DNA of 64,000 nt, taken from NCBI RefSeq assembly GCF_018531465.1, contig NZ_JAHDTF010000043.1:1-64000 (forward strand), read 5' to 3'. The stretch comes from Sphaerisporangium fuscum. Its GTDB lineage: Bacteria > Actinomycetota > Actinomycetes > Streptosporangiales > Streptosporangiaceae. Of this stretch, positions 34,029 to 49,892 are shown piece by piece. A program made the position numbers and the translations under genes. The number at the start of each line of letters is the position of its first letter. Positions within the stretch are counted from its first letter, which is position 1. Below the pieces are notes generated by a model. It saw only the letters and a list, made by a program, of their open reading frames with translations. It searched no databases and was not told where the DNA came from.

Positions 34029-35135
34029 ATGTCTGTTGTGGAGGAGGTACGTTTCCCCGCCGCCGAGGCTCTCCCGATGAAGGTGTGGCTCGACGACGGC
34101 GACTCACCGATCGATGTCATCGACGCGCTCGCGCTGTCCCCGTTCGCCCTGGGGAACCAGCCGTGGGCCCGTTCCGCCGACCTGGAAAGGGTGCGTCCCG
34201 ACGCGCCGCTGATGCCGGCCAAGGCCCGGCTGACCCGCTCGGCCAAGGAGGAGGACGGCCGCGAGTCGCGGCTGGCCTGCGGCGACGGGTGGACCCTGCG
34301 GGTGGTCAGGTACCGCAACCGCTCGGCGACGCTCACCGTGACCGCCGTCAGCGACGAGCTCGCGCGCTCGGTGCTGGAGGAGGCGGTCAAGGACGCCGTC
34401 GAACGGCCGCAGGAGGACGGCCAGGTCGAGATGGGCTTCTGGTGGACGGGCGGCCACGGCCCCCGCCGCAACCAGCGCCCGATCACCGCGCCCCGCTGGG
34501 AGGCGATCCGCGCCAACTACACGCGGCGGGCGGGCGAGTCGCTGGGACGGCTGATGGCGATGACGCCGTCGGAGGTCAACGGGCGGCTGATCCTCCTGCA
34601 CGGCCCGCCGGGCACCGGCAAGACCACGGCGCTGCGCGCCCTGGCCCGCGAGTGGGCCGAGTGGTGCCAGGTCGACTGCGTGCTCGACCCCGAGAAGCTG
34701 TTCGGCAGCCCCGGTTACCTGATGGAGGTCGCGGTCGGCTACGACGAAGGCGAGGAGCGGCGCCGCTGGCGGCTGCTGGTCCTGGAGGACTGCGACGAGC
34801 TGATCCGCGCCGAGGCCAAGGACGCCACCGGCCAGGGGCTGTCGCGGCTGCTCAACCTGACCGACGGGCTGCTCGGCCAGGGCAGGGACGTCCTGGTGGC
34901 GGTGACCACCAACGAGGACCTCGCCCGGCTGCACCCGGCCGTCGTCCGTCCGGGCCGCTGCCTGGCCCAGGTGGAGGCGGGCCGGCTGTCGCGGGAGGAG
35001 GCGGCGGCGTGGCTCGGCTCGCCGGACGGCCTCGGCCCCGCGGGGGCGACGCTGGCCGAGCTGTTCGCCCTGCGCGCCGGGCGCACCGACGTCGTCCCGC
35101 CCGCGCCGGCCGAGACGACCGGCCTCTACCTCTGA
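34029..35135 (+). CDS. AAA ATPase with DUF5925-like N-terminal domain
   Basis: A 368-residue ATPase. The N-terminal about 150 residues (VIDALALSPFALGNQPWARS, LRVVRYRNRSATLTVTAVSD) fit the DUF5925 type. The AAA core has Walker A LLHGPPGTGKTTALRA, Walker B LLVLEDCDEL, sensor 1 LVAVTTNED and the RPGR segment. It probably remodels a protein partner; such ATPases are common single genes in actinomycetes. It is divergent from the amidase and ends 6 bp before a perfect 16-bp hairpin, so transcription probably stops before the lanthipeptide genes. Confidence 0.8.
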   Translation: MSVVEEVRFPAAEALPMKVWLDDGDSPIDVIDALALSPFALGNQPWARSADLERVRPDAPLMPAKARLTRSAKEEDGRESRLACGDGWTLRVVRYRNRSATLTVTAVSDELARSVLEEAVKDAVERPQEDGQVEMGFWWTGGHGPRRNQRPITAPRWEAIRANYTRRAGESLGRLMAMTPSEVNGRLILLHGPPGTGKTTALRALAREWAEWCQVDCVLDPEKLFGSPGYLMEVAVGYDEGEERRRWRLLVLEDCDELIRAEAKDATGQGLSRLLNLTDGLLGQGRDVLVAVTTNEDLARLHPAVVRPGRCLAQVEAGRLSREEAAAWLGSPDGLGPAGATLAELFALRAGRTDVVPPAPAETTGLYL

Positions 35136-35467: not shown

Positions 35468-35644
35468 ATGAGCAACGCTTTCCTGCTGGACGACGCCACG
35501 ACCGACATCGAGAACCTGGACCTCGACCTGCAGGTCTCCTTCGACGCGCAAATGGCCGACGTGAACGGCTTCGACATGCTCGGTTCGCGTACCTCTCCGA
35601 ACCGGACCTACAACCACCAGTCGATGTGCCCGACCTGCTGCTGA
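35468..35644 (+). CDS. lanA: Class I lanthipeptide precursor peptide
   Basis: A 58-residue peptide: an acidic leader with ENLDLDLQVSFDAQM, then a core region ending SRTSPNRTYNHQSMCPTCC. The core has five Ser/Thr (42, 43, 47, 52, 56) and three Cys (54, 57, 58), enough for up to three (methyl)lanthionine rings. The LDLDL leader motif resembles the LanB-recognition box of actinomycete class I peptides such as microbisporicin, and the SxCxxCC tail matches theirs in spacing, though here Pro-Thr replace the residues before the last two Cys. It sits 97 bp before lanB with a strong ribosome-binding site. The processing site is unknown, perhaps near FDMLGS. Confidence 0.85.
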   Translation: MSNAFLLDDATTDIENLDLDLQVSFDAQMADVNGFDMLGSRTSPNRTYNHQSMCPTCC

Positions 35645-35664
35645 ACCAGCGCTGACGGGTCAAG

Positions 35665-35698
35665 GGAGGGCGCCGCTCCTCGGCGCCCTCCGCCTTTT
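35665..35698 (+). terminator. Hairpin between lanA and lanB, likely partial terminator
   Basis: GGAGGGCGCCG (35665-35675) pairs perfectly over 11 bp with CGGCGCCCTCC (35681-35691) around a 5-nt loop and is followed by GCCTTTTC. It is a Rho-independent-type structure right after the precursor gene. In lantibiotic operons such hairpins let lanA mRNA exceed lanB mRNA by partial read-through or by 3' stabilisation; this role is inferred here. Confidence 0.75.
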
Positions 35699-35741
35699 CC
35701 CGACCATATGAATTCGGTGGCGAGCGCGAGGGAACCGGTTT

Positions 35742-38700
35742 TTGCGAGACGACCTTTTCGAGACGGCCGACGCGATCCTCGTCCGGATGGGCACCGTTCC
35801 CCGGGATGGCGTGAAGCACGACGGTGCCGCCGATCCGCATTCTGTGATTCGACAGGTACAGGCCGATCCCCTGCTTCGCGAGGCGATCCGGGTGGCGAGC
35901 GGAAGCCTGTCGGGATTCCTCGACAAATTCGCGGACGGCACTGCGGGGAACAGCGAGAAAAAGCTGCTGCGGGCGGCGATTTCCGCGACCCGGTACCGGC
36001 TGCGCATGGGCGGCCGGCCGACCCCCTTCGGCCTTTTCGCCGGCGTCGCCGCGGCCCGGTTCGGACCCGAGGCCCGGGCCGAGGTGCGCGGGCCCGGCGA
36101 GAAGTCGGTCCGCCTCGACGGCGACTGGCTGCTCGGCCGCGTCCGCGCCTGGCTCGAACTGCCCGCCGTACGTCGGCGCGTGCACGTCATGGTCAACGAC
36201 CTGTGCTTCCCGCGCGACGGCCGCCTGTTCATCCGGCAGGCCGACGGCGAGATCTCGATCCGTGACACGCCGGTGGTCGCCTGGATCCGCGAGACCGCCG
36301 CCTCCCCCGTCCCGTACCCCCGCCTGCTGCGGGACGCCGCCGGGCGCTTCCCGGACGTCCCGGAGGACAGGATCGACGGCGTGCTGGCGCAGCTGATCCG
36401 GCACGGGTTCCTGGTCACCTCGATCACGCCTCACCTGTTCGACGCCCACCTGCTCGACCGTCTGGAAGCGGCGCTGGGTGAGGTGCCGGGCGCCGTCGAC
36501 GACCTGCGCGGCATCCGTTCCGCGCTGGACGCCTACCGCGCCACCGAACCGGGCAAGGGCGAGGACGAATGGCTCCGCCTGGTGCGCCGCCTCGACCCGG
36601 CCGGCACCGCGCCCCACCCTCCGGTGCACGTCGACCTGGCCATGGACGCCACCGTCGTGCTGCCCCGGCAGGTGGCCGACGAGGCGCGCCGCTACGCGCA
36701 CGCCATGTGGGCCATCTCCCCCGAGTGGGTCACCCACGGCCACATGCGCGAGTACTGGGACCGCTTCGTGGAGCGGTACGGGGTGGGCGACGCGGTGCCG
36801 CTCGCCGAGCTGGTCGACCCGCACCGCGGGCTGGGCCTTCCCGCGAGCTACCTGACCCCGCCCTCCGCGCACGCGCCCGCGCCCACCGGCGCGGAGACCG
36901 AGCAGGGCCGGGAGCGGCGCGCCCTGATCGCCGAACTGGTGCAGGAGGCCCTGCTCGGCGAGCGCCGTGAGCTGGTGCTGACCGAGGCCGACATCGACCG
37001 GCTCTCCTGCGCCTCCCCCGCCGACCCGCCCCGCACGCTGGAGCTGTGCTTCCAGCTCCTCGCCGACAGCGTCGCCGACCTGAACCGGGGCGAGTTCCGC
37101 CTGCTGTCCGCCCTGCACGCCGGCTCGTGGATGGCCGGGGCGACGGCGGGCCGGTTCGCCGCGCTGACCGGCATGAGCGGCGACCTGTCCCGGATCATGG
37201 CGAGCGGCGCCGGGGAGGCCATGGCCGCCCAGGTCTCCTTCCGGCCGCTCAGCGACCGGGGCGCCAACCTCGTGCAGGTGCCGCGGCTGCTGCCGTACGA
37301 GATCCCCGTGGGCGTCTTCGCCGACCGGGAGGACCCGCATGTCCTGGACTGGCGGGAGCTGCTGGCCACCGCGACCCCCACGGGGTTCCAGCTCGTGTGG
37401 GGACGGGACGGCCGGCAGGTGATCCCGGTGGTCCCCCACATGCTGGCCCTGGATCGCGAGGCGCCCGCCATCGTGCGGCTGCTGGTGGACATGGCCCTCG
37501 GCGCGCCCAAGACGCTGACCGGCTGGGACTGGGCCGGCCTGGCCTCCATGCCCTTCCTCCCCCGGCTCTCCTTCGGCAGGGTGGTGGCGGCTCCGCAGCG
37601 CTGGAAGCCGGACCGGCGCGTGCGCGAGGCCGCCGCCGACCCCGCCGCGTGGGCCTCCGCGCTCGCCCGGTGGCGCGACCGCTACCAGGTGCCCGACCGG
37701 GTGCAGATCGTCCAGCAGGACCGCGTGTACGGCATCGACCTGAGGGACGACTGGCACCAGAGGCTGCTGCGGCACGAGCTCACCAAGGGACGGCTCCTGC
37801 TGGTGGAGGACGTGACGGCCGGCGGGCGCGGGCTCGGCTGGGCGGGCGGCCACAGCACCGAGGTGGTCGTGCCCATGACCCGCCGGGACGGCGTCGCCGC
37901 CGCCCGGCGGCCGTCGGTACGACTGCGGCCCCGTGAGGAGTACCAGGCGCACCTGCCCGGCGAGGAATGGCTCTACGCCAAGCTGTACGCGGTGCCCGAG
38001 GCCCAGGACCCGCTGCTGCGCGACCACCTTCCCCAGCTGCTGCGCGAGATCGACGGTTCGGTCGACCGGTGGTTCTTCATCCGCTACCTCGACCCGGACC
38101 CGCACATCCGGCTGCGCCTGCACGGCGACCCCGAGGCCCTGCGCGCGACGGTGCTGCCCGCGCTGGCCCGGCACTGCAGGGCCTGGCAGCGGGCCGGGGC
38201 GATGCGCGCGCTGACCCTGGACACCTACGAGCCGGAGACCGGCCGGTACGGCGGCCCCGCCGCGCTGCCGCACGCCGAGCGGCTGTTCTGCCTGGACAGC
38301 CAGTCGGTGATCGCCCAGCTGCGGGCCCGCGCCCGCGGCGGCCCGGCGATCCCGGACGAGGTGCTCACCGCGGCCGGCCACGCGATCCTGCTGGAGTCCC
38401 TGGGCGACTGGGACTGGTGCGCCTGGGTCGAGCGCACCTTCCGCAAGGGGCCCGAGCACGCGACCTTCCAGCGGCACCGCGCACTCGCGACCGATCTCAT
38501 CCGTCCCGGACGGACGGCGGAGCGCGTCGCCGAACGCCTCTCCCTCCCCGGGCTCGCCCGGCTGTGGACCGGTTCGCCCGAGGCGCGCGCCTACGGGGCG
38601 ATCGTCCTGCCGGACGGAGAGCCGGGGGAAGCGTCGCGCGACATCCTGCTCGCGCTGCTGCACATGCAGCACAACCGGCTGATCGGCGTCGACCGGGCCA

Positions 38701-38783
38701 AGGAGACCGCCGCCGCGGCGATCCTCCGAGGCGTCGCCCGCGCCCACACCGGACGGCTCCGGCACGGCGCCGGGCTCGGCTGA
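35742..38783 (+). CDS. lanB: Full-length class I lanthipeptide dehydratase LanB
   Basis: A 1013-residue enzyme with both halves fused: the Lant_dehydr_N glutamylation domain (residues about 1-710; RPTPFGLFAG at 92-101) and the SpaB_C-type elimination domain (about 735-1000; DRWFFIRYLDPDPHIRLRLH and YEPETGRYGGPAALPHAE). It dehydrates Ser/Thr in the LanA core using glutamyl-tRNA. Full length distinguishes it from split LanB proteins of thiopeptide pathways. The start is a TTG at 35742 with GAGGGA 8 nt upstream; no in-frame ATG or GTG precedes it in that stretch. It is followed by lanC after 25 bp. Confidence 0.95.
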   Translation: MRDDLFETADAILVRMGTVPRDGVKHDGAADPHSVIRQVQADPLLREAIRVASGSLSGFLDKFADGTAGNSEKKLLRAAISATRYRLRMGGRPTPFGLFAGVAAARFGPEARAEVRGPGEKSVRLDGDWLLGRVRAWLELPAVRRRVHVMVNDLCFPRDGRLFIRQADGEISIRDTPVVAWIRETAASPVPYPRLLRDAAGRFPDVPEDRIDGVLAQLIRHGFLVTSITPHLFDAHLLDRLEAALGEVPGAVDDLRGIRSALDAYRATEPGKGEDEWLRLVRRLDPAGTAPHPPVHVDLAMDATVVLPRQVADEARRYAHAMWAISPEWVTHGHMREYWDRFVERYGVGDAVPLAELVDPHRGLGLPASYLTPPSAHAPAPTGAETEQGRERRALIAELVQEALLGERRELVLTEADIDRLSCASPADPPRTLELCFQLLADSVADLNRGEFRLLSALHAGSWMAGATAGRFAALTGMSGDLSRIMASGAGEAMAAQVSFRPLSDRGANLVQVPRLLPYEIPVGVFADREDPHVLDWRELLATATPTGFQLVWGRDGRQVIPVVPHMLALDREAPAIVRLLVDMALGAPKTLTGWDWAGLASMPFLPRLSFGRVVAAPQRWKPDRRVREAAADPAAWASALARWRDRYQVPDRVQIVQQDRVYGIDLRDDWHQRLLRHELTKGRLLLVEDVTAGGRGLGWAGGHSTEVVVPMTRRDGVAAARRPSVRLRPREEYQAHLPGEEWLYAKLYAVPEAQDPLLRDHLPQLLREIDGSVDRWFFIRYLDPDPHIRLRLHGDPEALRATVLPALARHCRAWQRAGAMRALTLDTYEPETGRYGGPAALPHAERLFCLDSQSVIAQLRARARGGPAIPDEVLTAAGHAILLESLGDWDWCAWVERTFRKGPEHATFQRHRALATDLIRPGRTAERVAERLSLPGLARLWTGSPEARAYGAIVLPDGEPGEASRDILLALLHMQHNRLIGVDRAKETAAAAILRGVARAHTGRLRHGAGLG

Positions 38784-38808
38784 CCGCGGCACCAGGCAAG
38801 GGGAGGAC

Positions 38809-40104
38809 ATGAGCAGGCAGGACCAGCGGGAGCGGGCACGCGAGGTCGTGGACCGGTTGCTGGAGCGGCTGGCCGATCCGGACGCCACCGCGGCCGCCAC
38901 CGGATTCGCCGCAGAGGTGTCCGACGACGGGCGGGCGCAGTCGCTGTGGGAGGACCTGTCGCTGGCCGACGGGTACCCCGGCGTCTCCCTGGCGTTCAGC
39001 GGCACCACCCACCGAGACAAGCGGCAGGTCGTGGCCGCCCACCGCTACCTGGCCCGCGCGACGGCCGCGGGCGAGGGGGCCGCGGGCACGGTGAGCATCT
39101 ACGGCGGCGTCGGCGCGCTGGCGTTCGCCACCCTGGTCGCCCACCGGCGGACCGGCGGGTACGTCGCGGCGCTCGGGCGGCTGGACGACTACGCCAGGCG
39201 ACTGACGCGCGCGGCCCTGCCCTCGGTCACCGGCGCCCCGGTGGCGAGCAACGGCGAGTTCGAGGTGGTCCGCGGGATGAGCGGCCTGGGCCGCTACCTG
39301 CTCGCCCGCGCCGAGACCTGCGGCGCCGAGCTGGAGATGGTGCTGACCTACCTGGTGTCGATGTCGCGGGGCGACGTCGCCCACCGGGGCCTGCGGGTGC
39401 CGCACTGGTGGTCCATGGCACCGCCGCGGGCCGGCATGGAGGACAGGCTGCCCGACGGGCACCTCAACCTGGGGCTCTCGCACGGCGTCAGCGGGCCGCT
39501 GGCCCTGCTCTCCCTCGCCTGGCGGGACGGGCACGTGGTCGAGGGGCAGCGGGAGGCCATCGAGAGCATCGTCGGGCTGCTGCGGCGGTGGGCGGTGGAG
39601 GACGAGCACGGCCCGCACTGGCCCTCCCACGTGAGCATCGAGGAGTGGGCCGCCGGACGGGCCTCCCCGCGCACGCGGCAGCGCCCGTCGTGGTGCTACG
39701 GATCGCCCGGGGTGTCCCGTGCCGTACAGCTGGCCGCGCTGGCCCTCGGGCGGGACGACTGGCACGAGCTGGCCCACGCGTCCGTGCTGGCCGTGCTCGC
39801 CACCCCGTGGGAGGAGTGGAGCGTCCCGGACGCCGGACTGTGCCACGGCTGGAGCGGGCTGCTGCACCTGGTCGGGCTGCTCAACGGGCATCTCGGCGAC
39901 GAACGGCTCGACCGGGCCCGGGACGAGCTGGCCGCGACCGTGATCACGCGCTTCCGCGAGGACCTGCCGTTCGGGTACCGCTTCGCCCAGGGCGCCGACA
40001 TGTCCGGGTTCCTGGAGGGCGCCGCCGGGGTGGCGCTGGCCCTGGACGCCTACGCCTGTGACGGGCCCACGGTCGGCTGGGACGCCGCCCTGCTCGTGTC
40101 CTGA
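38809..40104 (+). CDS. lanC: Lanthipeptide cyclase LanC
   Basis: A 431-residue zinc enzyme that adds Cys thiols to dehydrated residues, forming (methyl)lanthionine rings. The zinc ligands are Cys296 in SWCYGSPG and the Cys345-His346 pair in LCHGWSGLLH; LGLSHGVSGP carries the conserved His near the active site, and GFLEGAAGVALAL is the C-terminal alpha-toroid repeat. GGGGAGG precedes the ATG at 38809. It completes the modification pair LanB-LanC for the precursor at 35468. No transporter or immunity gene follows; the next gene is convergent. Confidence 0.95.
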   Translation: MSRQDQRERAREVVDRLLERLADPDATAAATGFAAEVSDDGRAQSLWEDLSLADGYPGVSLAFSGTTHRDKRQVVAAHRYLARATAAGEGAAGTVSIYGGVGALAFATLVAHRRTGGYVAALGRLDDYARRLTRAALPSVTGAPVASNGEFEVVRGMSGLGRYLLARAETCGAELEMVLTYLVSMSRGDVAHRGLRVPHWWSMAPPRAGMEDRLPDGHLNLGLSHGVSGPLALLSLAWRDGHVVEGQREAIESIVGLLRRWAVEDEHGPHWPSHVSIEEWAAGRASPRTRQRPSWCYGSPGVSRAVQLAALALGRDDWHELAHASVLAVLATPWEEWSVPDAGLCHGWSGLLHLVGLLNGHLGDERLDRARDELAATVITRFREDLPFGYRFAQGADMSGFLEGAAGVALALDAYACDGPTVGWDAALLVS

Positions 40105-40117
40105 CCGGCGCGCCGGG

Positions 40118-40921
40118 TCAGGGGGAGGCCGGCCGGGGAGCGGTCCTCGCCTCCGGCGACAGCAGTGACGGGTCCGAGCGCGCCAGCAGGGCCGGCTCGG
40201 TGCGGGGCAGGCCCCATCTCTCGCCCCCGGACGGGCCGGGCGGCGCCGGGGCGTTGTCCCAGAACGGGCCGACCAGGCCGAGCTCGCGGAAGAACGCCCG
40301 CGCCTCGTCGGGGGTGCGGCGGCGGTACTCCCGGGTGAGCCGCCCCTCGTACCAGCGGGTGGCGAGCAGCCACAAGGTGTGCATGTCGAGCAGGACGCCC
40401 CGCGGGTAGCGGGTCTCGCGCAGCCACCGTCCCACGTGCTCCTCCGAGCAGAACAGCGACTGGTGCGAGCAGGCGAACCGCACGTCGTCCCACATGCGCG
40501 CCACCGGCACCAGGAAGTGCGCGACCAGCTCGGCCGTGGTCGGCTCGTCGGGGCACACGTCGACCGCCAGCGCCCTGCCGCAGCCGGGGCAGTGGGTGGC
40601 CACCAGGCACTTCTGGCCCACCAGGGCCGGGATCGCGAAGGAGTCCCACGCGCAGCCGCCCCACCACTTCACCTTCTCGCCGGCGACGACGAATCCGAGC
40701 GGCACCGCCGACCACGGGTGCGCCATGATGACGCCCCGCCGCTCGGCGTCGAGCACGAGCAGGTTGGAGTCGTGCAGCAGCCGCAGCGCCGCCAGGGTCT
40801 CGTCCAGGCCGATGCCGAACTGGGCGGCCACCTCCTCGGGGGCGGGTGGGTCGCCGGTCTCGGCGAAGCGCCGGTAAACGAACACCCGCACGTCTGCCAG
40901 GTCGTCCATGCGTGTGGCCAT
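40118..40921 (-). CDS. MerB-like (organomercurial lyase family) protein
   Basis: A 267-residue protein with an N-terminal winged helix (residues about 25-65) and the MerB core. Its WWGGCAWDSFAIPALVG supplies Cys90 and Asp93, and HQSLFCSEEHVGRWL supplies Cys158, corresponding to MerB Cys96, Asp99 and Cys159. An added HCPGCGRALAVDVCP could bind metal. No merA, merT or merR lies nearby, so mercury detoxification as an operon is absent. It converges on lanC with 13 bp between stops. It may act on organometals, bind a metal, or have been reused for a peptide pathway; the last is speculation. Confidence 0.8.
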   Translation of the reverse strand: MATRMDDLADVRVFVYRRFAETGDPPAPEEVAAQFGIGLDETLAALRLLHDSNLLVLDAERRGVIMAHPWSAVPLGFVVAGEKVKWWGGCAWDSFAIPALVGQKCLVATHCPGCGRALAVDVCPDEPTTAELVAHFLVPVARMWDDVRFACSHQSLFCSEEHVGRWLRETRYPRGVLLDMHTLWLLATRWYEGRLTREYRRRTPDEARAFFRELGLVGPFWDNAPAPPGPSGGERWGLPRTEPALLARSDPSLLSPEARTAPRPASP

Positions 40922-41047: not shown

Positions 41048-41506
41048 GTGGGCAGGCCGAGGAAGGGCTCACGGCGCATCGTCGTCGACGGCGCCGTCTT
41101 CCGCTGGCGGGTCCCGAGGAGGCCCCGCTACCGGCAGGGCGACGACCGGATGCCCCTCACCTTCACCGTGGAGCGGGCCGAGGAGCCGGGGTCCGTCCTC
41201 GTGGTGTCGCTCCCCTGCGCCCGGCCGGACAACCAGGTCGGAGAACGCACGATCGCGGTCCGCCCCCTCCTGGTCGCCGGCTGCGTCCGGCGGGCCGTCG
41301 AACAGGGCTGGGACCCCGGGAGACGCGGATCGGCCTTCCCCCTCACCGTCACCGAGGACGAACTGGCCGTGCTCCTGGGCGGCCCCCCTCAGTACCTGAT
41401 CCCCTTCCTCTGGGGCATGATCCCCGAGGGCGGAGGCATCAGAGACCTCCCCCGATGCACCCAGATCCGGAGCCGGGACCAGCAGGACACCGGCCAGGGT
41501 CGGTAG
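41048..41506 (+). CDS. Small conserved protein of unknown function
   Basis: A 152-residue protein beginning GRPRKGSRRIVVDGAVFRW and containing LLVAGCVRRAVEQGWDPGRRG. The pattern is familiar from short actinomycete hypothetical proteins, often with a basic N-terminus and a Trp-Asp-Pro-Gly motif. There is no signal peptide or membrane helix. The GTG at 41048 follows GGGAGG by 5 nt. I do not know its function. The last about 20 residues look unordered (RDLPRCTQIRSRDQQD). Confidence 0.65.
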   Translation: MGRPRKGSRRIVVDGAVFRWRVPRRPRYRQGDDRMPLTFTVERAEEPGSVLVVSLPCARPDNQVGERTIAVRPLLVAGCVRRAVEQGWDPGRRGSAFPLTVTEDELAVLLGGPPQYLIPFLWGMIPEGGGIRDLPRCTQIRSRDQQDTGQGR

Positions 41507-41536
41507 GGACGGACGGAGCACCTCGTCGGCGGCTTC

Positions 41537-42421
41537 TCAGGCGTCGTCGGGTGACTCCGACGCCGGCTCCAGACCGAGGCGGGCCGGCAGGCTGCTCACG
41601 GCGGCCGTCAGGTCGGGCGGTGCGGGGCGACGGGTCACCATGAAGAGGGTGAGCCTCCCCGGAACCGCCACCGCCGAGATCCGCTCCTGGGGCTCGGCGT
41701 AGGAGAGGCCCAGCCCACGGGGCATGACGATCGGGCAGCGAAGCAGGCGCCCCATGCGTACGGCCGTCTCCGCCGTGGCCGCCGCCCGGGGGCGCCCGCC
41801 CAGCTCGGAGAGCCGCCGGTGCAGCGTGGCGGTGGAGGTGTCGTAGGTGTAGGCGACCACGTCGAGGCCCGCGAACGGCTTGCGCCCGGAGCCGAGCGGC
41901 ACGTCCGGCGGGGTGAGGACGGCGAGCCGGTCGCGTGCCACGGGCACGCCCTTCACCGTACCGGGCAGCCGCATCTGATCGGCGATCGCGACGAAGGCCG
42001 CGTCCAGCGACCCCTCGCCGACCCACTCGACCAGCCGTTCGCCGTGGTCGGTGACCTGGTGCACCGTCACCTCGCCCAGCAGTTCCTGCAACGCCGGGAA
42101 CAGCCACGGGGCGAGGCTGCCGAACGTGCCGACGGTGAGGATGGCCGCGCGCGCCGCCGCCCGGGTCCGGTCGAAGATCGCCTCCAGGTGCCGGAGGACA
42201 TGTGCCGCCTCCGCGGCGAGCGCCCGCCCCGCCGGCGTCGGCCGGGCACCCGTGGTGTCCCGGTCGAAGAGCCGTTCGCCGATCCTGCGCTCCAGCGCGG
42301 CCAGCCGGTTGCTCGCGGCCGGCTGGCTGATGAGCAGTTCCCGCCCGGCCGCGCCGATCGAGCCGTGCCGGGCGAGCGCCTCGACGAGCCGCAGATCCTC
42401 GACCGTTGGTAATGAGCTCAT
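41537..42421 (-). CDS. LysR family transcriptional regulator
   Basis: A 294-residue regulator. The HTH_1 domain is at residues about 8-65 (LRLVEALARHGSIGAAGREL, then QPAASNRLAALERRIGERLF). The effector domain (ILTVGTFGSLAPWLFPALQE) follows the usual periplasmic-binding-protein-like fold. It is divergent from an MFS exporter, and an inverted repeat GCTCATA-N9-TATGAGC overlaps its ATG (42416-42438). LysR proteins normally regulate the divergent gene, so it probably controls the exporter in response to its substrate. Confidence 0.9.
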   Translation of the reverse strand: MSSLPTVEDLRLVEALARHGSIGAAGRELLISQPAASNRLAALERRIGERLFDRDTTGARPTPAGRALAAEAAHVLRHLEAIFDRTRAAARAAILTVGTFGSLAPWLFPALQELLGEVTVHQVTDHGERLVEWVGEGSLDAAFVAIADQMRLPGTVKGVPVARDRLAVLTPPDVPLGSGRKPFAGLDVVAYTYDTSTATLHRRLSELGGRPRAAATAETAVRMGRLLRCPIVMPRGLGLSYAEPQERISAVAVPGRLTLFMVTRRPAPPDLTAAVSSLPARLGLEPASESPDDA

Positions 42422-42438
42422 ATGCCGACATTATGAGC
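42416..42438. promoter_or_regulatory. LysR-type inverted repeat at the regulator start
   Basis: GCTCATA (42416-42422) and TATGAGC (42432-42438) are perfect 7-bp inverted arms around 9 bp, covering the LysR start codon. This is the size of a typical LysR recognition site (T-N11-A style). It would serve autoregulation and activation of the exporter at 42495. Confidence 0.55.
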
Positions 42439-42494
42439 TGACAGGGCGATCCGCCATCTACCTGGGGATCTCACCCGATTCCAGGATTGGCTCC

Positions 42495-43739
42495 GTGACT
42501 GCTCGCCGTGACATCGCCGCAATGCTGACCACGACGTTCCTGACCTGGATGGGGCAGCGGACGACCGCCGTGGCGCTCCCCCTCGTCGCCCTCGCCGAGA
42601 CCGGATCCCCCTGGACCACCGGATTGGTCGGCGGCGCCGTCGGGCTGCCCATGCTCACATCGGCGTGGTGGGCCCGGGGACTACGGCAACGCCTGACGAC
42701 CGGCCGCGCTCTCGCCGTCGTGCTCGCCGTCCAGGTGGTGGGGCTGCTCGTCGTCCCGATCGGCGCCGCCGTCGGCACCGTCGGCCCGATCCACCTGGCC
42801 GCCACCGGCCTGATCACCGGCTGCGCCACCGCCGTGAGCGCCCCGGCCCAGCGGGCGCTGCTCGCCGACATCTGCGACCGCCTGGGCTCCGGCGTCGCCT
42901 CCCGGATGCTCGCCTGGCAGGACTTCGCCCACCGCAGCACGATGATCGTGGCGCCGCCGCTGGCCGGCTGGGCGATCACCGTCGGCGGCCCGTTCCGGTT
43001 GCTCTGGGCGGAGGCGGTGGGCGTCGGTCTCGGTGCGGCCGTGCTGCTGACGGTGAGAGGCGGCGCGGCCCCCGCCACCGGCGGCGGGATGACGGACGCG
43101 CCGGCCCTCCGGCACGTACTGGCCCGTCACCCGGAGGTACGCCGCGCCGTGACCATGTCCGGTGTCGGCGGCCTCGTCTGGTTCGCCTTCACCCTCGGGC
43201 TGGCGATCCTCGGCGCCGAGACCGGCCGGCCCGGCCTGCTCATCTCGGCCGGCATGACCGGTTACGGGGCCGGCTCCATCGTCGGGGCGCTCATGGCGCC
43301 GGCGCTGGTCCCCCGGCTGCCGTCACTGGGCACCATGGCCACCGGATGGATCATCCTCGGGGCGTCCTTCGCCGCCCTGCCCGCGGTGACCTCGTCGCTC
43401 ACGCTGATCGCCTGCCTGGCCGCGGTCGGCGGCCTGGCCATGCCGCTCGGCATCGGAGCGATGAACCGGCTGATCACCGTTCGGACCGACGGCGCGGAAC
43501 GGCGGGCGGCCTTCGCCGCCGAGAGCCTGGTGCACGACGGGGCGGTGTCGCTCGGCCTGCTCGCCGGCGGAGCGGTCATCGGCCTGGCCGGCGCGGGGCC
43601 GACACTGATCGTCGCCGGGGCCGCGCAGGTCGCCGTCGCGCTCCTGGCCGGGCCCTGGGTGATCCCGGTGCCCGCTCACCAGGTGCGGGACGACTCCCCC
43701 CTCCCGGCCGGACGAGCCCGATCCGCGTCCAGCACCTGA
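42495..43739 (+). CDS. MFS transporter
   Basis: A 414-residue polytopic protein with about 12 helices. It starts TARRDIAAMLTTTFLTWMG and has LLVSAGMTGYGAGS-like helix 7-8 (LLISAGMTGYGAGSIVGALM) and a cytoplasmic loop with ARGLRQRLTTGRAL in place of the usual motif A. The substrate is unknown; it is probably an exporter of a small molecule. The start is a GTG at 42495; the frame upstream lies over the divergent LysR gene. Regulated by the adjacent LysR. No accessory enzyme is adjacent. Confidence 0.85.
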   Translation: MTARRDIAAMLTTTFLTWMGQRTTAVALPLVALAETGSPWTTGLVGGAVGLPMLTSAWWARGLRQRLTTGRALAVVLAVQVVGLLVVPIGAAVGTVGPIHLAATGLITGCATAVSAPAQRALLADICDRLGSGVASRMLAWQDFAHRSTMIVAPPLAGWAITVGGPFRLLWAEAVGVGLGAAVLLTVRGGAAPATGGGMTDAPALRHVLARHPEVRRAVTMSGVGGLVWFAFTLGLAILGAETGRPGLLISAGMTGYGAGSIVGALMAPALVPRLPSLGTMATGWIILGASFAALPAVTSSLTLIACLAAVGGLAMPLGIGAMNRLITVRTDGAERRAAFAAESLVHDGAVSLGLLAGGAVIGLAGAGPTLIVAGAAQVAVALLAGPWVIPVPAHQVRDDSPLPAGRARSASST

Positions 43740-43975
43740 CCGTGCGGTGCGCGGGGCCGGCTCGGGGAAACGGCGCCCGGGATGCGTTCGACGGTCAGGG
43801 CGGCGGGCCGGGCGAAGGCCGCCGCCGCCGGGCACCTCCCACGCGTGTACGCTGCGGCTTGCACTGGCGGAACCCTCCTGAAGGGGCGCGAACGGGGCAG
43901 GTCAGCGGCCCTCCCCGAGCCTCGGGGCGGCCTTCGGGATCGCCGGCGCGACATCGAGACAGGTGGGCACGGCAG
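43740..43975. other. 236-bp gap without a recognisable gene
   Basis: The DNA between the MFS stop and the PucR start is GC-rich with open frames only by composition. I see no hairpin, repeat or promoter match worth calling, apart from the ribosome-binding site AGGTGGG (43961-43967) of the PucR gene. Confidence 0.5.
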
Positions 43976-45520
43976 ATGCTGAAGCTGGACCGGTTGGTGA
44001 ACGTCCTCGGCGGCTACGGGGCGCGGCTGTGCTGCGCCGTGCCGTCACGGGACGTGGAGCTGCGCAGCGTGGTGGTGCACGATCCGACCGACCCCCGCCC
44101 CGCGACCGGTGACGTGTTCCTTTCGGTCGGTGTGGAGTCCGCGGCCGACGCCGTACGGCTGGCGCGGTCGGCGCGTGCCGCCGCGGTGCTGGTGCGAGGG
44201 AAGCCGCCCCTCGACGAGAGCGCTCTGTCGGACGCGCGCGACAGCGGGATCGCCGTGCTGCTCGTGGAACCCGCGGTGTCCTGGAGCCAGCTCTTCGGCG
44301 TGGTGTACGGCCTGACGCTCGAAGGCCGGGAGACCGAGGCCGGGCGAGGGCCGACCGATCTGTTCGCCTTCGCGGACACGCTCGCGACCGATATCGGCTC
44401 CCCGGTGACGATCGAGGACCAGATGTCGCGGGTTCTGGCCTACTCCCGCTCGCAGCAGTCCGCCGACCCGGTACGGCTGGAGACGATCCTGGGCAGACGG
44501 GTACCGGACGCCATGCACCGCCTGCTGGAGAGCAAGGGCGTCTTCGCGCACCTGACGGCCTCCGACGAGCCGTTGTTCGTCGAGCCCGCGCCCGAGCACG
44601 GGCTGCGGGGCCGCATGGTGGTGGCCGTACGCGCCGGACGCGAGCTGCTGGGATCCATATGGGTCGAATGCGAGCGCCGGCTGTCCGACGATCAGCAGAT
44701 CGTCCTGTGCGACGGAGCACGGGCCGTCGCGCTGTACCTGCTGCGTTCCCGGGTCAGCGCGGATCTGGAACGGCAGGTGGAGTCCGACCTCGTCATCCAG
44801 CTGCTGGAGGGCTCGGCCGACACCCCCCGGGTGATCAGCAGGCTCGGCCTGCCACAGGGGCGGTTCCGGGTGATCGCACTCCAGGCGCACATCGCCGAGG
44901 AGAGGCACGCGGCGGTCCTGCTCGCCTTCGAGCGCGCGACCACGGGGTTCGGCTGGTCACGGCCCGGGCGTAGCGCGCTGTTCGGCAACACCCTGTACAC
45001 GGTGCTGCCCTGCGCGAGCGACGTCACGCCCGCGCGCGACTGGCTCGCCTCGATCTCGGGCGTCCTGCCGCGGCCGGTCACCGTGTTCGCCGGCATCGGC
45101 GGAGCGGCGGAGGCCGCCCAGCTGCCCGCGAGCAGGCGGGAGGCCGACGAGAGCCTCGCCCTGCGGGCCGCGCGGCCCGGCGGTGCCCCGGCGGTCGTGT
45201 ACGACGAGTCGTGGGACGAGATCCTGCTGCAGCGCCTCCGGGCGGCCGCGGCGTCGGGGCGCACCCCCGCCCGCGGGCCGGTCGCCGAGCTGACCCGGTA
45301 CGACGCGGAACGCGGCACCCGATACGTCCCGACCCTGCGCGCCTGGCTGGAGGCCCAGGGGGACCTGGGCACCGCCGCCGAGCGTCTCGGCGTCCACCCC
45401 AACACCGTGCGTTACCGGCTCAGGAAGATGGCCGAGATCACGAACCTGCAGCTCGACGTGCCGGAGAAGCGACTGGCGATGATCATCGCACTCGCCGTCC
45501 ACCAGGACACACAACCCTGA
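43976..45520 (+). CDS. PucR family transcriptional regulator
   Basis: A 514-residue regulator. Residues about 1-130 form a PucR/purine-catabolism N-terminal domain (ELRSVVVHDPTDPRPATGDV), 140-280 a GAF-like sensor (SPVTIEDQMSRVLAYS), and the C-terminal HTH_30 domain is LGTAAERLGVHPNTVRYRLR. These proteins activate amino-acid and purine catabolism genes in actinomycetes. It is directly upstream of the DadA-like oxidoreductase in the same direction, with two dyads in between, so it probably activates that gene. The long upstream frame from 42665 is a shadow of the MFS gene. Confidence 0.88.
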   Translation: MLKLDRLVNVLGGYGARLCCAVPSRDVELRSVVVHDPTDPRPATGDVFLSVGVESAADAVRLARSARAAAVLVRGKPPLDESALSDARDSGIAVLLVEPAVSWSQLFGVVYGLTLEGRETEAGRGPTDLFAFADTLATDIGSPVTIEDQMSRVLAYSRSQQSADPVRLETILGRRVPDAMHRLLESKGVFAHLTASDEPLFVEPAPEHGLRGRMVVAVRAGRELLGSIWVECERRLSDDQQIVLCDGARAVALYLLRSRVSADLERQVESDLVIQLLEGSADTPRVISRLGLPQGRFRVIALQAHIAEERHAAVLLAFERATTGFGWSRPGRSALFGNTLYTVLPCASDVTPARDWLASISGVLPRPVTVFAGIGGAAEAAQLPASRREADESLALRAARPGGAPAVVYDESWDEILLQRLRAAAASGRTPARGPVAELTRYDAERGTRYVPTLRAWLEAQGDLGTAAERLGVHPNTVRYRLRKMAEITNLQLDVPEKRLAMIIALAVHQDTQP

Positions 45521-45530
45521 CCGCCCGCGC

Positions 45531-45578
45531 TTGTCGGAGCAGGACAAACCGCCCCGTCGCGCTTGTCCGACGCGGACA
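45531..45578. promoter_or_regulatory. Twin dyads between the PucR and oxidoreductase genes
   Basis: TTGTCGGAGCAGGACAA (45531-45547) and TGTCCGACGCGGACA (45564-45578) are inverted repeats with TTGTC/GGACAA and TGTCCG/CGGACA arms, each preceded by GCGC. The spacing of 32-33 bp is about three helical turns. They are probable PucR sites controlling the downstream gene. Confidence 0.6.
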
Positions 45579-45644
45579 GCACGTTTCCCGTTCACATCGG
45601 CGATCCTCATGGCAGGCAAGAGACGCGAGCGGAGAAAAAGGGCA

Positions 45645-46895
45645 ATGCATATCGACGGTGGGCCGCGTTCCGCGGTAGTGATCGGCGCCGGTGTCGTTGG
45701 ACTGTCCACTGCGTGGTTCCTGCAGGAACGCGGCGTGGACGTCACCGTGGTCGACCGCGGCGGGGTGGCCGCGGGCGCCTCGTGGGGCAATGCGGGCTGG
45801 CTCTCGCCGGGGCTGGCGATCCCGCTGAACGAACCCGGCGTCCTGCGTTACGGTCTGAGCTCCCTGCTCAACCCGAACGCCCCGCTGCACGTGCCGGCCA
45901 CTCCCGACCCGGGCCTGTGGGCCTTCCTCACCCGGTTCGCCCTGAACTGCAGCTGGAAGTCCTGGGGCCAGGCCGTACGGGCGAACATCCCGCTCAACGA
46001 CGAGTGCCTCGAGGCGTTCGACGTGCTCACGTCCAACGGCGTCGAGGCGGCCACGATCGACGCGCCGATCATGGCCGCCTTCGAGACCGAACGCCAGGCG
46101 GTGGGGTTGCTGCACGAGCTCCGGCGCATCAACGAGTCGGGGCTGAAGATCGAGTACACCGCGTTCAAGGGTGACGAACTCGGCAAGCTGCTGCCGCAGA
46201 TCTCCCCCCGCGTCCGGGCCGGCATCCGGCTGGAAGGGCAGCGCTACATCGACCCCGGGGAGTTCACGCACTCGCTGGGCCGCGCCGTCACCGCACGCGG
46301 CGCCGAGATCCGGTCCGGCTTCGATGTCGCCGACGTGCGCACCGGGACCGGCGGGCTCACCGTGGTGTCGAGCGCCGGCGACTCGGTCACGGCCGACGCC
46401 GTCGTCCTGGCCACCGGCGCCTGGCTGAACCGTCTCGGCAAGGCGTGGGGCGTCCGGGTGCCCGTGCGCGCCGGACGCGGCTACTCCTTCACCGTGCCCA
46501 CCAAGGAACCCGTGCCCGCGCCGATCTACCTGCCGGCCGTACGCGTCGCCTGCACGCCGTACCAGGGCAAGCTCCGCGTCGCGGGGACGATGGAGTTCCG
46601 CGGCCCGGACCACCCGCTGGTGCGGCGGCGCATCGACGCGATCATCAAGTCCGCCGAGCCGCTGCTGGCCGGGGTCGACTGGGACGCGATGACCGACCTC
46701 TGGGTCGGCCCCCGGCCCGTGACCCCCGACGGCCGGCCTCTCATCGGAGCCACCAACGTCCCTGGCGTCTTCGTCGCGGGCGGGCACGGCATGTGGGGGA
46801 TCACCCAGGGGCCGATCACCGGGCGCATGCTCGCGGAGCAGATCACCACAGGAAAGCAGCCCGCCGCCCTGCGGGCCTTCGACCCCACCCGCTGA
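45645..46895 (+). CDS. FAD-dependent D-amino acid dehydrogenase-like oxidoreductase (DadA family)
   Basis: A 416-residue DAO-fold flavoprotein. Its FAD-binding VVIGAGVVGLSTAWFLQERG comes near the N-terminus, followed by the WGNAGWLSPGL loop, and the C-terminal FVAGGHGMWGITQGPITGR closes the isoalloxazine pocket. This is the DadA/hydroxyproline-oxidase pattern. The substrate is a D- or imino-amino acid, unspecified. The ATG at 45645 has GGAG 14 nt upstream; the frame opens from 45531 over the dyads. It is probably activated by the adjacent PucR protein. Confidence 0.88.
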   Translation: MHIDGGPRSAVVIGAGVVGLSTAWFLQERGVDVTVVDRGGVAAGASWGNAGWLSPGLAIPLNEPGVLRYGLSSLLNPNAPLHVPATPDPGLWAFLTRFALNCSWKSWGQAVRANIPLNDECLEAFDVLTSNGVEAATIDAPIMAAFETERQAVGLLHELRRINESGLKIEYTAFKGDELGKLLPQISPRVRAGIRLEGQRYIDPGEFTHSLGRAVTARGAEIRSGFDVADVRTGTGGLTVVSSAGDSVTADAVVLATGAWLNRLGKAWGVRVPVRAGRGYSFTVPTKEPVPAPIYLPAVRVACTPYQGKLRVAGTMEFRGPDHPLVRRRIDAIIKSAEPLLAGVDWDAMTDLWVGPRPVTPDGRPLIGATNVPGVFVAGGHGMWGITQGPITGRMLAEQITTGKQPAALRAFDPTR

Positions 46896-46931
46896 CATCA
46901 GCTCGGCCGGCGACGGCGTCGTGCCCCTCGG

Positions 46932-47813
46932 TTACAGGCGCTTGGCCAGGAAGGACAGCACCGCGTCGGCCATCTCGTCGGGTACTTCCTCGGCGAGGTC
47001 GTGACCGGCGTCGAAGACGTGACCGGTGACGTCGTGGGCCATGAGCCGCATCTGCGCCTCGTTCCGCTCGCCGATGAACGCCGAGCCGCCGAGCGCCAGC
47101 ACCGGGATGTCCAGCTTCTTCTGCGCCGCCTGCCGGTTCTGTTCGGCGTCCACGAGCATCGCCCGATAGATCGACAGCATCGCGCGGATGCCTCCGGGCA
47201 TCGAGTAGCAGCGCACGTATTCGTCGACCGCGTCGGTGGTCGCGGTGTCAGGGTGGCTGCGCTCGTTCTTGATCATGTAGGTGATCAGTTCGCGTTCATG
47301 GCCGGCGATCAGCAGCTCGGGGACGTCCGGCTGGAAGTAGAAGCCCAGATGCCACAGGTGCAGGCCGCTGGAGACGTTCTCGGGGGTGAGAGCGGTGTGG
47401 TCCTCGAAGCCGAATCCGGGGAAGAGCGCCTCGGCGAAGACCAAGGCGTTGACGTGATCACGGTGCCGGGCGGCGAGCTGGTAGCCGATCACCGCTCCCC
47501 AGTCCTCTCCGATCACTACGTAGGACTTGTGCCCGAGGTGAGCCATCAGGGCGGCGATGTCGTCGCTCATCGTCGCCGAGTCGTATCCGTCAGCGGGCCG
47601 GGCTGAGTCGCCGAGGCCACGCAGGTCCGGTACGACCACGGTGTAGTGCGGCGTCAGCTTCGGGAGGAGGTGCCGCCAGTGGTAGCCGGTCTTGGGCACG
47701 CCGTGCAGCAGTACGACTGCCGGGCCGGACCCGCCCGTCCGGTAGTGCAGACTCGTTCCGTTGACCGTGGCACGGCCCGTGCGGACCGGGTCTCCGTGGT
47801 GGTCGAACATCAT
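46932..47813 (-). CDS. Alpha/beta hydrolase, epoxide hydrolase/dehalogenase-like
   Basis: A 293-residue hydrolase with VVLLHGVPKTGYHWRH (oxyanion), the nucleophile elbow GEDWGAVIGYQLA with Asp, LRGLGDSARP and the C-terminal AGHDLAEEVPDE with the catalytic His. Asp nucleophile plus Glu before it resembles fluoroacetate dehalogenase and epoxide hydrolase relatives. The ATG pair at 47813/47810 is preferred over the frame to 47891. It lies 93 bp downstream of the unknown 433-aa gene in the same direction, so the two may be co-transcribed under the TetR at 49314. Confidence 0.85.
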   Translation of the reverse strand: MMFDHHGDPVRTGRATVNGTSLHYRTGGSGPAVVLLHGVPKTGYHWRHLLPKLTPHYTVVVPDLRGLGDSARPADGYDSATMSDDIAALMAHLGHKSYVVIGEDWGAVIGYQLAARHRDHVNALVFAEALFPGFGFEDHTALTPENVSSGLHLWHLGFYFQPDVPELLIAGHERELITYMIKNERSHPDTATTDAVDEYVRCYSMPGGIRAMLSIYRAMLVDAEQNRQAAQKKLDIPVLALGGSAFIGERNEAQMRLMAHDVTGHVFDAGHDLAEEVPDEMADAVLSFLAKRL

Positions 47814-47906
47814 TTGCCTTACCAACTTCCTGTGTTCCTCGGTGCGGCGGCGGCGGAGGCCGGTGCCCGCCTCAGCCGTCTGCCACCGCATCTTCGGCGG
47901 TCTGTT

Positions 47907-49208
47907 CTAGCGGTCGGTGATGTCGTGGTCCGGCAGGTCGATGACGAGGCGGCTCGGCCCGTTGCCGCCCGCCGTCACCGGTTCGGCGCGATGGCCGGCG
48001 GGGCGCAGGACGACGTTCTCCGGGTAGAGCCGGCCGAGCAGTGCCAGCACGACGGTGTCGTCCTGACCGGTGGCGTCCAGGGTGACGTCGCCGCCCTCCG
48101 TCCACACCAGCCCGGGTGCGCGCAGTGCGGCCCACACGTCCGCGGTCCGGGTGTCGCCGGCGGTCGCGTTGCCTGTGGTGGGGCGGTGGCGGTGGCGGTG
48201 GGCGAAGCGGTGGCCGCGCAGGGCCTGGCCGAGGTCGACGCAGGCGGTGGTGCCCTCGTGGGCCACGGCGATGTGGGCGGTCCGGGTGCCGTCGGCGACC
48301 GGCCCGATGACGATACGGAAGGGGAGCGGCCCTTCTACCGGGGCGGCGGGCGGCAGATCCTCGATGAGCGTGCGAGGCGCGGCGTAGTAGTCGTCCAACT
48401 CGGCGACGTAGGTGGCGGTCTCGCCGACGGCGGGGTCGGGGCGCCAGGTCAGCAGGTGCTGGGGCGCGGTGAGCGGCGGTGCGTCGATGACGGCGGGCAG
48501 GGCGGTGCCGCCGTCCGCGTCGAAGCCGTAGCCGTCGGGGCCGGAAGTGCCGGTGACGACGTGGCGGGCGAAGTCGACGATGCTGGTGTGCCGGATCTGG
48601 CGGACCAGGAGTTCGGTGAGGAATCGGTCGCGGGCCGCCTCGGTGTGCCGCAGGCCGCTGGGAGTGACCAGGAGCGGGACGTCCTGCCAGTTCGTGAAGG
48701 GCAGCAGGGCATCCCGCAGCAGGACCATCTGGTGCAGCCACTCGTTGTAGAGCTGCATCGTGACGGGCCCGCCGCGGCGGCCCCGGAGCAGGTCGGCCGC
48801 GGGCGGGGTGAGCAGGTGACCGTAGCAGTGGCTGCGGACGACGAGCGGGCCCGCGGGGAAGGGGATCGGCTCGGTCAGCAGCCGGTCCAGCGCCGTGGTC
48901 GCCCATGAGGCGATCACCCGCCCTATGGCCTCGGCCTGCGCGCCCACTTCGCGGGCGGCCGTGGCGCTGTCAGGGCCGACGGCCAGCGGAAGGGAGGTCT
49001 CCCGTGTGCCCAGGCCGAGCGTCGCGCGGATCTGGGCCTGAAGCACCTCACCGTCCGCGCTCGTCAGGGCGTTGTCATCAATGATGCCCTGCAGCAGCGG
49101 CAGGGCACCGGTGAAGAACTCGCGGGCGGTCATGGTGCTCGCCTCGGGGAAGGTGTTCCATCGGCTGCCGCCAAGGACCGGGGCGGTTTCGGTGTGCGAG
49201 GGTGGCAT
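47907..49208 (-). CDS. Unrecognised 433-residue protein under TetR control
   Basis: A 433-residue protein with no signal peptide or clear membrane helix. The N-terminal half looks helical (AREFFTGALPLLQGIIDD, LLVRQIRHTSIVDFARHVVT). The C-terminal half is beta-rich with RIVIGPVADGTRTAHIAVAH and ACVDLGQALRGHRFAHRHRH, and has Trp-, Asp- and His-containing loops. I cannot place it in a known family. GGAGGA sits 3 nt before the ATG. It is between a TetR gene and an alpha/beta hydrolase on the same strand, with a 22-bp dyad (49277-49298) upstream, so it belongs to an inducible operon. Confidence 0.7.
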   Translation of the reverse strand: MPPSHTETAPVLGGSRWNTFPEASTMTAREFFTGALPLLQGIIDDNALTSADGEVLQAQIRATLGLGTRETSLPLAVGPDSATAAREVGAQAEAIGRVIASWATTALDRLLTEPIPFPAGPLVVRSHCYGHLLTPPAADLLRGRRGGPVTMQLYNEWLHQMVLLRDALLPFTNWQDVPLLVTPSGLRHTEAARDRFLTELLVRQIRHTSIVDFARHVVTGTSGPDGYGFDADGGTALPAVIDAPPLTAPQHLLTWRPDPAVGETATYVAELDDYYAAPRTLIEDLPPAAPVEGPLPFRIVIGPVADGTRTAHIAVAHEGTTACVDLGQALRGHRFAHRHRHRPTTGNATAGDTRTADVWAALRAPGLVWTEGGDVTLDATGQDDTVVLALLGRLYPENVVLRPAGHRAEPVTAGGNGPSRLVIDLPDHDITDR

Positions 49209-49276
49209 GGTTCCTCCGATGTCGTGGACGAGGCCGCAAGCGGCCTCACCGGCGTCGGTGTCGACGGCGGCGACTT

Positions 49277-49298
49277 ATCTGGATCGCCCGATACAGAT
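49277..49298. promoter_or_regulatory. 22-bp dyad upstream of the unknown gene
   Basis: The arms ATCTG-ATCG and CGAT-CAGAT are inverted around a CC centre, with one mismatched pair. A near-copy lies at 49909-49930 upstream of the TetR gene, sharing the first 15 bp ATCTGGATCGCCCG. The TetR at 49314 probably binds both and so links the two transcripts. Confidence 0.7.
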
Positions 49299-49313
49299 TC
49301 CGGGCGTGAAAAA

Positions 49314-49892
49314 TCAGCCGAGCGTGCTCAGGGCTACCTCCACGAGGGGTTCGAGGGCACGGGCGTCCGGGGTGATCTTCGAGGAGACGAGGAGCCCGTT
49401 GAGGAAGGTGACAAGGAAGGCGGCGAGGGTGTGCGGGTCGTGCCGCGCCGAGATCTCGCCGCGCTCCACCGCCGCGCGCAGCAGGTCGGTGAGCGCGTCC
49501 TGGTTGGCGCCCAGCACGTCACGCAGGGTGCGCCGGGTCGGCTGGTCCTCCGGCAGGCGCTCGGTGGCGGCATTGACCAACAGGCAGCCCCGGCCGCCGT
49601 GTTCGACGGCGATCCGGATCCGTTCGACCAGCAGCGCGCGGATCGCCGAGCGGGCGTCCGTCCCCTCTTCAAGGCTGCGCAGGGCGGCCGCGGCGAAGGT
49701 GGCACGATAGTGCTCCAGCGCGGCCCGGTACAGGCCGTCCTTGTCGCCGAACGCGGCATACAGGGAACCCTGCCCGATCCCGAGGTGCCGGGTCAGGTCC
49801 CGCACCGAGGTCGCCTCGTAGCCACGCGCCCAGAACAGCTCCATCGCGCGACGCACCGCCGCCTCGGTGTCGAATTCCCGGGTCCTTGCCAT
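49314..49892 (-). CDS. TetR family transcriptional repressor
   Basis: A 192-residue protein. Helix-turn-helix: AVRRAMELFWARGYEATSVR, then GIGQGSLYAAFGDKDGLYRA, typical of the AcrR/TetR branch with Ser-Leu-Tyr-Ala-Ala-Phe. The C-terminal domain has GGRGCLLVNAATERLP with a Cys, common in this subfamily (TetR_C_16/33-like). The gene is upstream of the unknown 433-aa gene on the same strand; matching dyads lie at its own promoter (49909-49930) and in front of that gene. Confidence 0.9.
   Translation of the reverse strand: MARTREFDTEAAVRRAMELFWARGYEATSVRDLTRHLGIGQGSLYAAFGDKDGLYRAALEHYRATFAAAALRSLEEGTDARSAIRALLVERIRIAVEHGGRGCLLVNAATERLPEDQPTRRTLRDVLGANQDALTDLLRAAVERGEISARHDPHTLAAFLVTFLNGLLVSSKITPDARALEPLVEVALSTLG

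Follow-up and report, generated by a model that had tools for sequence, protein, structure and literature searches.

A class I lanthipeptide cassette in Sphaerisporangium fuscum, apparently a new relative of embleporicin

The window analysed here is a 64,000-nucleotide stretch of Sphaerisporangium fuscum DNA (NCBI RefSeq assembly GCF_018531465.1, contig NZ_JAHDTF010000043.1, positions 1 to 64,000). It carries three adjacent genes, lanA, lanB and lanC, which as a whole are very probably best explained as a cassette for class I lanthipeptide modification within the SCO0268/embleporicin lineage. To judge from sequence, the cassette looks like a new relative of embleporicin, within a known lineage and beyond its main host family. 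The genes, their catalytic residues, their lineage, their presence and absence among genus-mates and a recurrent hairpin can be observed directly.

All three genes lie on the forward strand. lanA (35468-35644) is an open reading frame for a 58-residue class I lanthipeptide precursor, MSNAFLLDDATTDIENLDLDLQVSFDAQMADVNGFDMLGSRTSPNRTYNHQSMCPTCC, whose leader holds LDLDL at residues 17-21. lanB (35742-38783) starts with TTG behind a GAGG-type ribosome site (read by eye) and encodes a full-length, 1013-residue lanthipeptide dehydratase of the tRNA-Glu type (PF04738 and PF14028; Lant_dehydr_N 4.8e-171, Lant_dehydr_C 8.9e-53). lanC (38809-40104) encodes a lanthionine cyclase of 431 residues (PF05147; LANC_like 7.6e-48), which was aligned with 8byk and with NisC (2g02). 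The Pfam scan of LanA matched no family. The chance of a spurious precursor was gauged with an independent profile, which drew on 21 relatives but not on the window and was run against six-frame window segments and a reversed control. The lanA frame was recovered at E=6.8e-13, the next window segment at E=0.24 and the best reversed-control segment at E=0.017. No second precursor copy was found in the window or, in a search to E 10, in the S. fuscum genome.

The catalytic residues of both enzymes are in place. The LanC zinc ligands C296, C345 and H346 and the histidine H225 are all present, as read in the LanC sequence and in its alignment with NisC. The best solved-structure match of LanB is 5ehk, a lantibiotic dehydratase that we take to be MibB. 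Twelve NisB positions with presumed catalytic roles (R83, R87, T89, D121, D299, R464, R784, R786, E823, R826, H961 and R966), located by manual counting in the LanB group alignment, were checked. The window LanB is identical to NisB at all twelve, and all twelve are also kept in each of the 12 other LanB rows inspected from a set of 41. A full-length LanB, a separate LanC with a Cys-Cys-His site and an LDLD-type leader followed by a Ser/Thr/Cys core are the marks of a class I lanthipeptide system. The initial annotation had placed the three genes, the LDLDL leader, the full-length LanB and the LanC zinc ligands here, and open reading frames, Pfam, profile and residues agree with it. The same genome holds two further, more distant LanB-type genes (G000:C42:44164-46101, L002, 81.8 bits; G000:C19:29930-30802, L003, 61 bits).

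A LanB scan of 84,980 species genomes returned 13 loci: 12 in Streptomyces or Kitasatospora at 50-55% identity (one of them, L015, with a partial LanB) and a distant one in Pedobacter. Among 394 genomes of the class, the precursor profile matched 5 (one being S. fuscum itself and two weak); among 394 of the Streptomyces-type family f18, it matched 16. A LanB search of plasmids matched 48 records, of which four were read (two Embleya, two Streptomyces); loci are called Embleya-type (L077, L079-L081) where their LanB groups with the LanB of two named Embleya plasmid records. Several candidates were dropped: L015 (C-terminal LanB part, no precursor found), L017 (Pedobacter, 23%), L078 (LanB and precursor identical to L077), L082/G1000 (weak precursor match, LanB and LanC absent from the stretch), and G453 and G545 (weak). 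Precursor matches L026, L027, L057-L065 and L071 stayed outside the LanB/LanC reading.

The maximum-likelihood tree comprised 42 LanB proteins: that of the window, 22 SCO0268/Embleya-type rows (two identical) and 19 of the host's own family (two from its own genus); MibB and PspB are not among them. The window LanB groups with the 22 Streptomyces, Kitasatospora and Embleya-type rows with support of 100/100 on a stem of 0.58, and all 19 sampled own-family LanB fall apart from it. Identity to the window protein tells the same story for LanB (49-56% inside the clade versus 34-40% outside) and for LanC (52-59% versus 31-42%, in matches of at least 300 residues). The top-scoring enzymes are both Embleya-type (LanB about 56%, LanC up to 59%; over the Embleya-type loci 53-56% and 53-59%, respectively), and the best precursor pair is with L077, also Embleya-type. 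LanB matches at E up to 1e-60 occur in 121 of 338 own-family genomes (S. fuscum included), the two best first-look candidates per genome having been scored. A close LanB within the family was sought among them and rejected, the best other one being about 42% identical. One genus-mate (G217, L048:1198-1377) has a different small precursor, with an FDLDLQ leader and an ERCVESGCCK end, beside a divergent LanB.

Embleporicin (EmpA/EmpB/EmpC) comes from Embleya sp. NF3. PMC11672506 reports its production by cell-free synthesis and, once furin had removed the leader, a halo of inhibition on Micrococcus luteus; the paper also mentions a homologue from Actinoallomurus vinaceus JCM 17939, describes the cluster without a LanP and assigns a PEAQxS motif to the SCO0268 family. 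Locus L081 fits the embleporicin described there (PMC11672506): its precursor has 59 residues and contains LRAA-DFGK, its lanB is 3201 nt long, a P450 gene lies upstream, and the Ser, Thr and Cys counts of its 26-residue core are as stated. Its predicted lanC is longer than the stated 1383 nt, which the start codon may explain. The window core, SPNRTYNHQSMCPTCC, and the L081 core, SPNATSGVQSRCIPCC, are of equal length and align without a gap, sharing 9 of 16 residues. The two systems have in common the A-B-C core unit, the LDLD leader and the spacing SPN-x-T-x3-QS-x-C-x2-CC. Measured against the embleporicin motif GVQSxCxxCCx, the window has the LDLD leader and QSxCxxCC with NH in place of the GV that precedes QS, and its CC is terminal; L081 also ends in CC. 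The window core differs further in having three Cys instead of four, and its cassette lacks the P450, regulator and permease neighbours and sits in a different actinomycete family. PMC11672506 also states that EmpB has not kept most of the catalytic residues of NisB. If L081 encodes EmpB, our alignment does not support this, since the probable EmpB (L081:6312-9512) is identical to NisB at 12 of the 12 checked positions.

The SCO0268 family is the other point of reference. SCO0268-SCO0269-SCO0270 appears as a lanA-lanB-lanC cluster in a 2010 study (Marsh et al., PMC3091789); the passages of Walker et al. 2020 (PMC7268733) consulted make no mention of SCO0268. The window shares with this family the three-gene lanA-lanB-lanC unit and a LanB of the same clade, in a comparison made with relative loci and not with SCO0268-0270 themselves. 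When precursors were scanned singly, 8 of 19 relatives scored above the TIGR04451 cut-off and 16 of 19 matched at E up to 1 (the precursors of L007 and L014 were outside this NCBIfam scan). TIGR04451 is labelled 'SCO0268 family class II lanthipeptide', yet its members (e.g. L075:4716-4877) adjoin LanB and LanC and are thus class I.

Several observations weigh against placing the cassette in this lineage or against reading the unit as lanA, lanB and lanC alone. (i) LanA scores 15.6 bits (E=0.013) with TIGR04451, below the cut-off of 40 bits. (ii) PEAQxS is absent from its 58 residues. (iii) The window LanB forms a separate long branch, with no supported placement inside the clade. (iv) The genes that flank the L081 cassette, a P450 upstream and, behind lanC, a 315-aa gene matching no Pfam family, do not occur in the window. 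(v) The core lies within about residues 34/40-58, the cleavage site not being readable from the sequence. (vi) In two near-identical relative loci the gene immediately before lanA, with the same orientation, encodes a Peptidase_S37 (L005:8101-9546 and L016:8165-9610), and an ABC exporter-type gene lies two genes further upstream. The score, the missing motif and the long branch set the window apart from the SCO0268 family in its strict (TIGR04451) sense, of which it is not a member; the embleporicin-like L081, at 19.4 bits, is also under the cut-off. In the broad sense, defined by the LanB clade and adjacent A-B-C genes, the window belongs to the lineage.

The short gene list is normal for the SCO0268/embleporicin group. 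Whole cassettes were read in 19 other loci (L005-L014, L016, L073-L077, L079-L081), which hold 21 cassettes because L010 and L011 have two each, and all 21 have lanA, lanB and lanC adjacent, in this order and on one strand. Incomplete loci had been dropped beforehand, so this figure shows unit composition and not breakage rate. They share no other gene over the neighbourhoods sampled. In gene clustering of the first 12 loci and the window, the widest non-cassette cluster, an Opp-type ATPase, reached four loci (L008, L010, L011 and L013), three more Opp clusters and one other reached three, and the remainder two or one. A Pfam count over 96 of 107 listed neighbour proteins (nine of the 11 others were scanned separately) was dominated by no family (ABC_tran 7, BPD_transp_1 7, oligo_HPY 5, p450 5, HU-type DNA-binding 5, MFS 4), and neither a subtilase nor a flavoprotein family was among the first 25 of the 76 listed. 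A motif scan of the relatives for ABC exporters, subtilases and LanD proved weak, as it missed Opp ATPases found by Pfam; the statement on missing genes therefore rests on the clustering and the Pfam scans.

In the window itself, gene predictions and Pfam agree that lanD, lanP, lanT and an immunity gene are absent from the predicted genes at 34-42 kb; the others there are an AAA ATPase/DUF5925 gene, a MerB-like gene, a short open reading frame without assignment and a LysR regulator. The initial annotation was thus right about these absences and about processing and export lying outside the unit, as neither leader removal nor export is encoded in the cassette. Its description of the gene set as unusually minimal does not stand, the bare adjacent unit being common in the lineage. 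Elsewhere in the genome a search for LanD gave three PF02441 flavoprotein-family matches, all on other contigs and none near the cassette, and a search for Peptidase_S37, as in L005 and L016, gave no match, which shows little since control genomes had none either. An MFS-like gene 2.4 kb to the right of lanC (42522-43739) reaches 32.0 bits, below the cut-off of 33.4. In a row at 52280-56603, 12 kb from the cassette, lie genes for a C39-like peptidase, an S9 peptidase of the prolyl-oligopeptidase type and an M20 peptidase. Homologues of these three stand beside the AAA gene in cassette-free genus-mates, so they are taken as native genes; it is possible that they serve the cassette as host helpers. 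In L005 and L016, the S37 and ABC exporter-type genes could be the leader peptidase and exporter.

The lack of any exporter or immunity gene common to the cassettes also fits a lanthipeptide that is not an exported lantibiotic and acts instead as a signal, a morphogen or a ligand taken up by an oligopeptide importer. Genes for such Opp-type importers flank cassettes in three Streptomyces species (L008:3799-9314 and 14450-20290; L010:373-3892 and 16244-21299; L011:363-3880), two of which have tandem cassette pairs. We nevertheless consider a non-antibiotic role unlikely. Only 3 of the 19 loci show the Opp link, and of their five LanB four group in a single subclade (94/88); an ABC exporter-type gene is near the cassette in L005 and L016, and embleporicin, the nearest studied relative, is reported as antibacterial (PMC11672506). 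A wider version, which we rate as quite unlikely, would treat the cassette as a portable module without its own exporter, protease or immunity, served by host peptidases and transporters and in some hosts coupled to re-import through Opp, so that the product would be an internal or re-imported signal and not a secreted antibiotic; if this held, the window would be an instance outside Streptomycetaceae.

It is very unlikely that the cassette is a silent or decaying remnant, without product after the loss of its export, protease and immunity genes. The absence of transporter, protease and immunity genes from the unit, the finding of the precursor in one of 341 family genomes, its own, and the S37 and ABC exporter-type genes upstream of lanA in L005 and L016 would all suit such decay. 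All three frames are open, however, the catalytic residues are intact, and most of the 19 other loci also have the bare A-B-C unit, which suggests that it never included the missing genes.

Microbisporicin and planosporicin are class I lantibiotics with an LD-rich leader and an SxCxxCC tail; they carry a LanD and further accessory genes, and a Ser precedes their last Cys pair. The window shares the class, the leader type and the tail with them, whereas it has Pro-Thr before the last Cys pair and no LanD at 34-42 kb; its ring pattern may differ from that of microbisporicin, as the initial annotation proposed. The initial annotation had used these two as comparators; embleporicin and the SCO0268 family are nearer by LanB tree, by LanB and LanC identity and by precursor. 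That the cassette is a microbisporicin/planosporicin-type system after loss of LanD and accessory genes is highly improbable: the shared tail and leader and the match of the LanB group to 5ehk, presumably MibB, speak for it, but the nearest LanB, LanC and LanA by sequence are of the Embleya/Streptomyces SCO0268 type, the CTPGC-type lipid II motif is in none of the 21 relative precursors, and no flavoprotein is among the 25 of 76 neighbour families of the relatives considered, MibB and PspB being outside the tree.

The core, read as belonging to the SCO0268/embleporicin lineage, has a recognisable layout. The pattern SP[SN]..[ST]..[ST]xCxxCC fits 16 of the 21 relatives, the exceptions (L008, L010a, L010b, L011a and L011b) all coming from Opp-flanked loci. 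These 16 TSP-type relatives and the window keep three Ser/Thr facing three Cys, a constancy that is partly by construction as the pattern was derived from the same sequences. Because three donors are kept for three thiols, Ser43, Thr47 and Ser52 seem the likeliest partners of Cys54, Cys57 and Cys58. One example would be a Ser52-Cys57 ring with two overlapping rings to Ser43 and Thr47, their order and stereochemistry not being predictable from sequence. An aminovinyl-cysteine would not be expected in the product, since no LanD gene is near and no Ser precedes the last Cys pair. From Ser40 on there are six Ser/Thr and three Cys, which raises the loss of up to five waters proposed initially to up to six. 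For a core beginning at Ser40 the monoisotopic mass is calculated as 2184.892 without modification and as 2130.860 (-3 H2O) to 2076.829 (-6 H2O) after dehydration; for one beginning at Gly39 the values are 2241.914 and 2187.882 to 2133.850. The core had also been called distinct from known products; it is so in its letters but not in kind, as CPxCC, with or without one extra residue, ends 8 of the 21 relative precursors. The core string RTYNHQSMCPTCC and three other cores of the group were not found in the literature searched, which did not cover the figure alignment of PMC11672506.

Between lanA and lanB lies an 11-bp GC-rich stem-loop, GGAGGGCGCCG-CTCCT-CGGCGCCCTCC (35665-35691, forward strand). 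An uninterrupted 11-pair stem after lanA was reached by none of 100 shuffles; the fold of the whole spacer was not exceptional against shuffles (z -1.5), and a terminator scan did not flag the stem. Uninterrupted stems of at least 10 pairs within 60 nt after lanA occur in 17 of 22 cassettes, which come from related loci and are not independent, versus 21 of 306 other gene ends; in co-directional gaps of 50-300 nt, stems of at least 10 pairs occur in 2 of 80. The exceptions (L007, L008, L010a, L013 and L014) have interrupted stems in an energy scan run without control. The T-runs after the lanA stems are mostly poor, which favours an attenuator or RNA stabiliser over a full terminator; the element is probably an attenuator or a stabiliser of the lanA 3' end. 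A similar element lies between nisA and nisB. The sole terminator-like match of the scan is inside lanB, at the chance rate (1 versus 0.7 expected). No sigma-70 consensus promoter was found, which says little for such an organism.

The flanks show how the cassette sits in the genome. On the left is the DUF5925/AAA ATPase gene (34029-35135, forward strand), and on the right the MerB-like gene of the alkylmercury lyase family (40118-40921, reverse strand), both outside the cassette. The latter matches PF03243 at 78.6 bits and is under the NCBIfam organomercurial lyase cut-offs, making it a MerB relative. The AAA gene is present in 7 of 10 genus-mates examined, and in none of the seven does the cassette stand beside it. 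In three of these (L050, L053 and L054) the AAA gene and the MerB-like gene are adjacent and converge, their stop codons 38, 15 and 9 bp apart, against 4,982 bp in the window; the other four lack the MerB-like gene as well. Since the flanks are 9-38 bp apart in the three cassette-free genus-mates, the cassette comes or goes as a unit. The precursor was found in one of 341 family genomes, that of S. fuscum. The simplest reading is horizontal gain at an intergenic site, because the rest of the LanB clade in the sample is of Streptomycetaceae type; repeated loss is possible as an alternative. No target duplication was seen by eye at the junctions. Further right, the window from about 41 to 52 kb (41048-52200; MFS-like gene, oxidoreductase, regulators and others) is unmatched in seven genus-mate stretches, and the region right of the MerB-like gene is likely to be an insertion hotspot.

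From these data we infer a scheme for the chemistry, ring pattern, regulation, processing and activity of the system. LanB would bind the LDLDL leader, glutamylate core Ser and Thr with Glu-tRNA and eliminate glutamate to leave Dha and Dhb, and LanC with its zinc would add the three Cys thiols to three dehydrated residues. The hairpin between lanA and lanB would probably keep the lanA transcript above that of lanB. Leader removal and export would fall to host genes outside the cassette. By analogy with embleporicin, the mature peptide would most likely be a small lantibiotic against Gram-positive bacteria.

With this cassette, a little-studied lanthipeptide lineage gains a diverged member from outside Streptomycetaceae. 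The core of the cassette is a natural variant, with three Cys, Asn-Arg for Ser and Pro-Thr before the last Cys pair, on which the ring-forming Ser/Thr can be tested. With only two modifying enzymes, rebuilding the pathway in a laboratory host should be easy. The finding also sharpens the question of how lanthipeptides are matured and released when their clusters encode neither a protease nor an exporter.

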